From Chlorobiaceae bacterium (GTDB lineage: Bacteria; Bacteroidota; Chlorobiia; Chlorobiales; Chlorobiaceae): a stretch of 53,544 bases of DNA. Shown here in pieces: positions 1 through 2,454 of the stretch (within the stretch, counting starts at the first letter, position 1; each line of letters begins with the position of its first letter). The notes beneath the pieces were generated by a model. It did no database searches and had not been told where the DNA came from. It saw only the letters and a program-made list of their open reading frames with translations. Where the stretch lies: positions 1-53,544 of the forward strand of contig JAAXWX010000009.1 of the NCBI GenBank assembly GCA_013334755.1, read 5' to 3'. Made by a program: the position numbers and the translations under genes.

Positions 1-244
1 AGCCAGTCGAAAAGCCGGCTGAAGAAATCTCTCCGGCTGTTGTTCCTCCAACCATGGGAATATTACCGGCAACCGAAGATATACCGGAAAGAAGTTCACG
101 ATGATTAAAGCGCATCGCAGCGAAAACGATGAGTACCTTGGCCGCGCGGTCAAGTTTTCCAACTGCGCAATGAGCTGCTTCCTGTCCCGCGGAAAATGAA
201 TCGGCAAGGGAACTGAATCCAACACTTATATTATTTATTGCCAT
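1..244 (-). CDS. FIST-domain sensory protein, N-terminal part (cut by window edge)
   Basis: This frame runs off the window edge and gives the first 81 residues of a protein starting at the ATG at 244. An AGGA ribosome-binding site lies just upstream of that start. The N-terminus has the VGFSS start, an AGQEAA segment, a hydrophobic KVLIVFAAM strand and the sequence VGGTTAGEIS, which together are the signature of the FIST N domain. FIST domains are predicted small-ligand sensors, often fused to histidine kinase, GGDEF or chemotaxis modules. The output module here is beyond the window. Two HTH regulators are encoded upstream on the same strand, so this may be a local signalling group. The family call is firm; the function is inferred. 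Confidence 0.75.
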   Translation of the reverse strand, partial: MAINNISVGFSSLADSFSAGQEAAHCAVGKLDRAAKVLIVFAAMRFNHRELLSGISSVAGNIPMVGGTTAGEISSAGFSTG

Positions 245-303
245 TATCTTCTCTTCCTGATAATCAGTTTTAGTGATTACTTACTTGGATCTTGCCGATC
301 CCT

Positions 304-510
304 TCATAGCCGCAAATTGCCGCGAGGGATATATCGTCCAGCATCAGGCATCAGCACAAACTTGAGTTGTCGGGTCTGCCTGAGCAGATTTTTGAGCAAC
401 CCCTGTTGCACATTGAAGATGTTGAGCCAGTAAAAACAAGTGAGTTGCAGCAAATGATCGCTTGCCGTTATTCCGGTGAACTTCAGCTTGCGCAAAAGCC
501 TCTCTTTCAT
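304..510 (-). pseudogene. Possible C-terminal remnant of a DDE transposase (IS1380-like)
   Basis: This 68-codon frame has no credible start or ribosome-binding site. Its second half (FYWLNIF, then a GLLKNLLRQTRQLKF stretch, then GRYIPRGNLRL before the stop) resembles the C-terminal end of IS1380-type transposases, where a helix reading roughly NLF-LFxxxLL is followed by an arginine-rich strand and a GRxxxxGxxLxL ending. No inverted repeats or catalytic part are present nearby. The match is by eye and weak, and it could be chance coding-like sequence. The rest of the 245-553 gap shows nothing else I can name. Confidence 0.3.
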
Positions 511-553
511 TTGAAAAAGAGGCTTTCGGTTTTCATCTCATATGCGGTGCTTC

Positions 554-1039
554 TTATAAAGAAACAGCAAGATCTGAAAGATAGGTCTTGATTGACTGGT
601 GTTTTCCAAGGCCAAGCTTTTTATGCATTCTGTAGCGGATACTTTCCATTCCTCTCGTTGATATTCCCACAGAGCGACCAATCTCCTTTGTATCGTAATT
701 CAGCTTGACAAGAAGACTTATTCTCAGTTCACGCTGGTTGAGGTTGGCATGTTTTTTTTGCAGTTTCGATAAAAAGACTGAATCGGACTCGGTCAGCTCT
801 ATATTCAGACGTTTTTCTATCGTCTCGGTTTCTATGAGGCTCAGGCAGGAGTCGGTCATTATTCTTTTAACAGCCGAATCAATTTCAAGAGCATGTATTT
901 GGTCGAGGAGGTTACGCAAGGAAGTGGTTTTTTCTGCGATTGCCGTGGATACTCTCGTCAGTTCCAGATCCTGATTTGCAATTCTTGTTCGAAGAGCGCT
1001 TATCTCTTTTTCGTAATCCTGAATGGATTTTGTATTCAT
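554..1039 (-). CDS. Coiled-coil / LuxR-type HTH transcriptional regulator
   Basis: This encodes a 161-residue regulator when started at the ATG at 1039. A GTG at 1162 would add 41 residues, but that stretch is AT-rich, unlike the paralogue next door, and has no ribosome-binding site. Residues 5-50 form a heptad-like coiled coil. Residues 100-145 are a LuxR/GerE-like helix-turn-helix: LNQRELR, then a TKEIGRSVGIS helix, then a recognition helix SIRYRMHKKLGL. The C-terminal 120 residues are strongly similar to those of the neighbouring 1237-2454 gene, so the pair arose by duplication. No receiver or other sensor domain is visible, so signal input probably comes through a partner. DNA-binding role confident; targets unknown. 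Confidence 0.75.
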   Translation of the reverse strand: MNTKSIQDYEKEISALRTRIANQDLELTRVSTAIAEKTTSLRNLLDQIHALEIDSAVKRIMTDSCLSLIETETIEKRLNIELTESDSVFLSKLQKKHANLNQRELRISLLVKLNYDTKEIGRSVGISTRGMESIRYRMHKKLGLGKHQSIKTYLSDLAVSL

Positions 1040-1236
1040 TTGTGCTTGTGTGTTTATAGTTGTATGACGTGTTAGCGGAAGTAATATGTGTATTATTTTT
1101 ATAAAAAATGAATAATTTTTACTTTTTCCTAAAAAAAATACTGTTATTTGTTCAGTCTTCACGCCAGTGAAGTAAGTGTATCCGATATTTCGGCGTTATA
1201 TTTTGGGATTATTCATCACCTTAACCGGCTCATCGG

Positions 1237-2454
1237 TTAAAGAAAAGAAGAGATTTCCTGAAGGCCGGTTTTAATTGATTGGTGTTTTTCGAGACCCATT
1301 TTTTTATGCATCCGGTAGCGGATGCTTTCGGAACCTCGCTTTGATATTCCCAGTGCCCGGGCAATTTGCGAGTTGTCATAATTCATTTTCACCAGGAGAG
1401 CGAGTCTCAGTTCCCGCTGATTAAGGCTTGGGTGACTTTTCTGAAGTTTTAACAGGAATTCTGAATCACTCACGGTCAGAGGAATGTTGTCGTGAGGTTG
1501 TTCACTTCTTTCCGATTCAATAAGTTCCTGGCATTGTTTCAGTATTGTTGTTTTCAGTTCGGGGTCAATGTCGATCATGTGGATGGTGCTGCAAAGCTTC
1601 TGAAGTACTGCTGTTGTTTTGTTGATTGCAGTTGTCATTCTTCTGAGCTCATTTTCCTGGGAAGCGGTTTTGCTTTTCAGTGTAATCCTGTCCTGTTCAA
1701 GATCGCGTATCATTTGTTTATTCAGAGCGATCTCGGCGTTTAACTGGATGATCTTTTTTGACAGTTGTTCTTCTTTGTCGATTGCCAGTCGTTCAAGCAA
1801 CAGTTGATGTTCTTTATCCCTTGCGTTCAAATCATTCTGAAGACTTTTAATTGCCATGAAAAAAGGATACAAGCTGTTTTCCCTCGGAGGTATGTTGATG
1901 TGCGGGTTTGTCATCTGCAGGAGACTTATACGGGCAACGGCGGCCAGGAATTCATTTTTGAGCTTTTCATCGCTGGATTCAACAGTGGAGAGGCTAAGTC
2001 TGCCGGTTTTGTATGCGATAACTTTTTCCATGGCATCTTTATAATTTGCGGCATAGAGCAGCCGGGTTTGTTCCGTTGAGATCGCCCCGAAGGTTTCTAT
2101 ATCGATTGCTATATCCGGATGAATGTTGTAGAGTACGACAAGGCGTATATTGCGGCCCCAGTTGAATATGAAGTTGAGAAAATCCTTTTTGTATTTGTAG
2201 GCAATACACCGGACATGATCAAAGTCAGCGATGATGTATAGTGATTTGTCGATCAGGTCAAGATCATTGAGTACTGCATGGAACTTTTTGGCTTCAATGC
2301 CGGAAAGAGTTATATCCGATTTTGCGTTGTGCGTCATAAAAATAATATCCTGTCCGATGCACCGGAACGTAGTATTGTAGCCGTCTTCATTATGCGGGGC
2401 TGTCCATTCAGGTTTTTCCTGAACAGGCAATTTGGATACCAGGCATTTATTCAT
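1237..2454 (-). CDS. STAS-like N-terminal domain / coiled-coil / LuxR-type HTH regulator
   Basis: This is a 405-residue protein with three visible parts. Residues 30-150 alternate hydrophobic strands and helices (SLYIIADFDHVRCIAYKY, then IRLVVLYNI, then AANYKDAMEKVI), a pattern reminiscent of SpoIIAA/STAS-like folds. Residues 205-300 are a long charged coiled coil. Residues 340-390 are an HTH with LNQRELRLALLVKMNY, an ALGIS turn and SIRYRMHKKMGL. The coiled coil and HTH match the downstream gene at 554-1039 closely; the N-terminal domain is extra. The ATG at 2454 follows an AGAAG ribosome-binding site. The STAS comparison is structural guesswork. The HTH assignment is solid. Confidence 0.75.
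   Translation of the reverse strand: MNKCLVSKLPVQEKPEWTAPHNEDGYNTTFRCIGQDIIFMTHNAKSDITLSGIEAKKFHAVLNDLDLIDKSLYIIADFDHVRCIAYKYKKDFLNFIFNWGRNIRLVVLYNIHPDIAIDIETFGAISTEQTRLLYAANYKDAMEKVIAYKTGRLSLSTVESSDEKLKNEFLAAVARISLLQMTNPHINIPPRENSLYPFFMAIKSLQNDLNARDKEHQLLLERLAIDKEEQLSKKIIQLNAEIALNKQMIRDLEQDRITLKSKTASQENELRRMTTAINKTTAVLQKLCSTIHMIDIDPELKTTILKQCQELIESERSEQPHDNIPLTVSDSEFLLKLQKSHPSLNQRELRLALLVKMNYDNSQIARALGISKRGSESIRYRMHKKMGLEKHQSIKTGLQEISSFL

Follow-up and report, generated by a model that had tools for sequence, protein, structure and literature searches.

A Probable FIST–Hybrid Kinase Module in the Syntenic Slot of a Coiled-Coil/LuxR-Type Regulator Pair of Chlorobiaceae

Gene Order at the Locus

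The window, a stretch of 53,544 nucleotides, is the entire contig C58 of the assembly of a Chlorobiaceae (Chlorobium-group) genome. Because it is the whole contig, there is no sequence left of position 1, and the minus-strand order of long regulator, short regulator, and FIST gene ends in a FIST gene cut by the contig end (table 1). An earlier note on this DNA had described a FIST gene and two paralogous LuxR-HTH genes on one strand, and they are present as claimed.

Table 1. Features at the FIST end of the window.
Feature	Positions	Strand	Evidence
FIST (FIST_N) gene, first ~80 codons	2..244	-	PF08495 match; alignment to relatives
Terminator-like hairpin between short regulator and FIST	493..528	-	Folding
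Short coiled-coil/LuxR-HTH regulator	554..1039	-	Orthologue identity; start analysis
Long regulator, 405 aa: STAS-like domain, coiled coil, LuxR HTH	1237..2454	-	ORF, model, folds
LuxR-type HTH, long regulator, residues 340-402	1249..1437	-	DosR/VraR/LiaR matches, Z about 9
Predicted continuous helix (coiled coil), long regulator, residues 196-293	1576..1869	-	DSSP on model
STAS/SpoIIAA-like domain, long regulator, ~residues 21-149	2008..2394	-	Fold match

The FIST frame stays open to the first base of the contig. Its fragment matches FIST_N (29.5 bits; cut-off 23.2) and aligns with 14 relatives of about 400 aa, while PDB sequences gave only weak matches to FIST, for example F-box protein 22. 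In the window's own assembly we found no second FIST_N match, only a sub-cut-off FIST_C (PF10442) match to this same fragment, and no trace elsewhere of the rest of the gene. The kinase and the aldehyde dehydrogenase that flank FIST in relatives were likewise not found in that assembly, the best matches being 39% and 26% identical, respectively.

The Two Regulators

The long regulator and the short one (listed as a 202-aa ORF at 554-1162) are 44% identical over query residues 182-402, the short protein being of the same kind minus an N-terminal STAS-like domain. GerE, the LuxR HTH profile, scores 18.8 and 16.2 bits for the two, below its gathering cut-off of 23.5. Neither has a Response_reg match at E ≤ 1, which upholds the claim that both HTH proteins are without a receiver domain. 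An AlphaFold model of the long regulator (72-sequence alignment, mean pLDDT 86.8, pTM 0.54) has a NarL-type HTH fold matching the C-terminal domains of DosR (Z 9.1, 65 residues, rmsd 2.3), VraR, and LiaR. The C-terminal fold is thus shared with the NarL/LuxR-type regulators, unlike which the Chlorobiaceae proteins have a coiled coil, with or without the STAS-like domain, in place of a receiver.

The STAS-like domain was missed in the earlier note, and Pfam STAS has no match to the long regulator by sequence. In the model, this domain resembles SpoIIAA (1tid_D; Z 11.3, 112 residues, rmsd 2.5), and the best Foldseek match of the protein is also a SpoIIAA-like fold (E 0.0033, probability 1.00); unlike SpoIIAA, it is fused to a DNA-binding domain. 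Searches of the long regulator against PDB sequences returned weak matches only, one of them coiled-coil. Tyr88-Lys89 of the STAS-like domain is invariant. By a hand count against the SpoIIAA motif, rather than by superposition, there is presumably no serine at the phosphosite, near which Tyr88-Lys89 would lie.

The short regulator is about 81-92% identical to orthologues of 167-189 aa in the same chromosomal slot. Its ORF as listed reaches a GTG at 1162, and the start is probably the ATG at 1039. The window reads ATA at 1055-1057 (minus strand), where all 12 short-regulator orthologues compared start with ATG; the next in-frame ATG, at 1039, is six codons on. A third coiled-coil/HTH paralogue occurs in the window's own genome (G000:C88:717-1172; L062).

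The Stretch between FIST and the Short Regulator

The earlier note had placed an apparent transposase remnant between FIST and the HTH genes, and comparisons with Pfam, the genome, and the genus lend it no support. The 68-aa ORF at 304-510 has no Pfam match at E ≤ 1, and the stretch 245-553 occurs once in its own genome. Against 60 other genomes of the genus it gives only 27-34-bp matches, in 10 genomes; the seven inspected fall in long ORFs that, read by eye, do not resemble transposases. We therefore rejected the remnant.

The stretch holds instead a terminator-like hairpin (-22.6 kcal/mol, z -4.2). Hairpins with z of -2.9 to -6.7 lie 3' of the regulator gene and before FIST in all six loci folded, from a set of 15 that includes the window. 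A consensus promoter/terminator scan performed no better than on shuffled sequence and did not list the window's hairpin. From the predicted hairpins, we take the regulators and FIST to be two putative transcription units.

Distribution of the Regulators and Their Slot

The regulators match in all 61 genomes of the family and, in a phylum-wide set of 296 genomes, in each of the 65 Chlorobiaceae, most of which carry them without FIST. The full regulator profile also matches 160 of the 231 non-Chlorobiaceae genomes. The STAS-like domain alone is found in 58/65 Chlorobiaceae and 0/231 others, so the outside matches run through the coiled coil and HTH. Judged by these profiles, the STAS–coiled-coil–LuxR regulator pair is Chlorobiaceae-specific. 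A contig search with an alignment profile gave 78 loci from the best 80 of 120 matches, all titled Chlorobium, Chlorobaculum, Pelodictyon (a Chlorobiaceae name), Chlorobiaceae, Chlorobiales, Chlorobi, or Chlorobiota; an earlier search with a single protein as query had given no matches. We found no published description of such regulators in green sulfur bacteria, most subscription journals lying outside the search.

The regulator slot is syntenic, with an aldehyde dehydrogenase block (identified by Pfam) on one side and, on the other, what we take from reading the sequence to be a diacylglycerol-kinase-like gene block. It holds tandem long forms, a long and a short form, a short form alone, or a long form alone. 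One slot protein (L094, 443 aa) combines the STAS-like domain with a C-terminal region that shares 89.8% identity with the short protein of the window. The short form therefore most likely arose, in many Chlorobium, through loss of the STAS-like domain. Among 15 FIST-less Chlorobium slots inspected, 11 carry the short form (G056, G023, G060, G044, G054, G019, G033, G029, G053, G013, and G059), and the other four hold long forms only (G003, G005, G025, and G041).

The short regulator is, by codon comparison, under purifying selection both with and without FIST. Over 13 pairs, for many of which dS is near or above 1 and saturated, dN/dS (Nei–Gojobori) was 0.026-0.063 in the six FIST-less pairs and 0.018-0.070 in the other seven. 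Slot regulators with and without FIST are mixed in the regulator tree (113 rows; proteins shorter than 150 residues dropped, identical last 150 residues kept once). One row (L004, from G045) is labelled FIST-less though G045 has FIST, and only the mixing is used here, with no group counts.

FIST and Its Kinase Partner in Relatives

FIST occurs in 18 of the 48 Chlorobium genomes of the phylum sample, the window's included, whereas all 17 sister-genus genomes of that sample are without it. The relatives' protein is stand-alone, consisting of FIST_N and FIST_C only, with scores above the curated cut-offs (150.1 and 125.5 bits; 137.7 and 115.6 bits). Directly downstream lies a hybrid histidine kinase gene in all 16 other Chlorobium loci in which downstream sequence is present, a seventeenth (G037) being cut and left out. 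Three of these 16 kinases are fragmentary or only partly visible: that of G027 has 607 aa, that of G039 runs for 577 aa up to the contig end, and that of G266 is represented by its N-terminal 213 aa, which are 76% identical to a full-length one. The kinase of the slot is a PAS-hybrid with HisKA-HATPase-REC-REC domains, and no cognate response regulator is evident beside it. The kinase partner that the earlier note had named as counting against its proposal is largely borne out in the relatives, as a separate gene and not as FIST's own end.

In G041 and G299, which hold two of the three FIST loci that lie outside the slot, the kinase is about 990 aa long; the G041 kinase carries an Hpt domain, and the two proteins share 71% identity over 995 columns. 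FIST-partner kinases of this size lie at L048:3384-6368, with an Hpt domain unlike the scanned slot kinases, and at L206:7474-10443. Elsewhere in the phylum, an adjacent same-strand kinase was present at 31 of 37 FIST loci, a fetched subset of those outside the family. None of the 37 had an HTH regulator within three genes by a profile that was built from Chlorobiaceae sequences and may miss distant LuxR HTHs. In another family of the phylum, FIST lies within a 1040-aa protein beside a hybrid kinase (L231:5640-8762).

The arrangement recalls two known systems. In NosP-NosK/NahK, which sense nitric oxide/heme, a stand-alone FIST gene likewise adjoins a histidine kinase gene, and NosP is reported to control NosK autophosphorylation (PMC12570481). 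In Vibrio cholerae, a published study (PMC4398556) places a FIST gene, vpsV, upstream of that of a cytoplasmic kinase, VpsS, and proposes VpsV as the sensing partner of VpsS; we liken the Chlorobium pair to this one by gene layout, not sequence. Unlike NosP, the FIST proteins of four relatives score 73.0-83.4 bits against the NosP model (NF041558; cut-off 450), and the window's fragment scores 26.8 bits. The partner kinase reaches 151-188 bits against the 400 of the NosP-associated kinase model, and no NosR-type c-di-GMP regulator was recognised among the neighbours scanned. By score, Chlorobium FIST falls outside NosP proper. Papers on NosP in Chlorobium, judged by titles and abstract openings, gave nothing relevant. 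Since FIST stands beside a kinase as in both systems and the NosP score is not reached, we name the pair a FIST–kinase module of NosP/VpsV-like design.

Linkage of FIST to the Regulator

The co-occurrence that the earlier note had set beforehand as a test was found: in 15 of the 18 Chlorobium FIST genomes (window included), the short regulator lies directly upstream of FIST on the same strand, at a spacing of 294-781 bp, and in all 15 it is the short, STAS-less form and not the long one. The slot descends from a common ancestor, and the 15 cases are therefore not independent. The stretches fetched from G270 (13.0 kb) and G299 (11.0 kb) carry no regulator of this kind, and in G041 none occurs in the 520 bp to the contig end. 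Chlorobium ferrooxidans (G056) is without the FIST–kinase pair, having 34 bp (L061:10845-10878) between the regulator and the aldehyde dehydrogenase; its regulator shares 99.4% identity with the one in G045 (L052), a sister genome that has the pair.

Interpretation

The observed gene order, domain make-up, and conservation are best explained, at a probability of roughly 0.75, by two separate things: a NosP/VpsV-like FIST–hybrid-kinase module and the Chlorobiaceae-specific regulator pair in whose syntenic slot it sits. The FIST protein would bind a small ligand and thereby control autophosphorylation of the adjoining PAS-hybrid kinase, as NosP does with NosK and VpsV is proposed to do with VpsS; a kinase probably follows FIST in the window's own genome too. 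What speaks against this reading is that neither the kinase nor the flanking aldehyde dehydrogenase turned up in the window's own assembly. The regulators probably dimerise through the coiled coil, with the long one controlled through its STAS-like domain and the short one by abundance or partner binding. Given that FIST in relatives has its own kinase and that the regulators occur without FIST, the pairing looks like a conserved neighbourhood in one slot and not a proven new pathway.

A stronger form of this reading, to which we would give slightly under an even chance, holds that an old neighbourhood gained the FIST–kinase pair and then often lost it again, the pair being functionally independent of the regulators and having its output partner at another place in the genome. 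The mixing of FIST and FIST-less slot regulators in the tree and the absence of the pair from G056 but not its sister are in its favor, while the tightly kept order and strand in 15 genomes speak against it. Such linkage, always with the short form, could be explained by a functional link; shared ancestry explains it as well.

One functional link would have the FIST–kinase pair feed the short regulator, phosphorylated REC domains binding or releasing its coiled coil, so that a sensor in trans replaces the lost STAS-like one. With no evident cognate response regulator beside a kinase that has two REC domains, the neighbouring HTH could act as its output, and the 15/18 linkage with the STAS-less form in every FIST slot points the same way. 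We nevertheless regard this as unlikely, because the STAS-less form also occupies 11 of the 15 FIST-less Chlorobium slots, the short regulator is strongly conserved without FIST, a hairpin separates the genes, and three FIST–kinase pairs have no regulator nearby. It is quite improbable that a FIST-sensing hybrid kinase of Chlorobium, lacking a response regulator of its own, has in this way come to act via the coiled coil on a LuxR-type regulator that has no receiver, and so to control it.

The proposal of the earlier note, that FIST itself contacts the coiled coils of the regulators without a kinase, finds nothing in its favor beyond the neighbourhood. The kinase adjacent to FIST in Chlorobium and at most loci elsewhere, the regulators that persist without FIST, the hairpin, the three of 18 genomes in which the genes are apart, and the 0/37 loci outside the family together make direct signalling of this kind very improbable indeed.

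The module places FIST–kinase sensing in the anoxygenic green sulfur bacteria, and the locus points to a regulator family, built of a STAS-like domain, a coiled coil, and a LuxR HTH, in every sampled Chlorobiaceae genome. Further short coiled-coil/HTH paralogues (L066, L082, L083, and L086) repeatedly adjoin one four-gene block encoding proteins of about 367, 1040, 140, and 425 aa.
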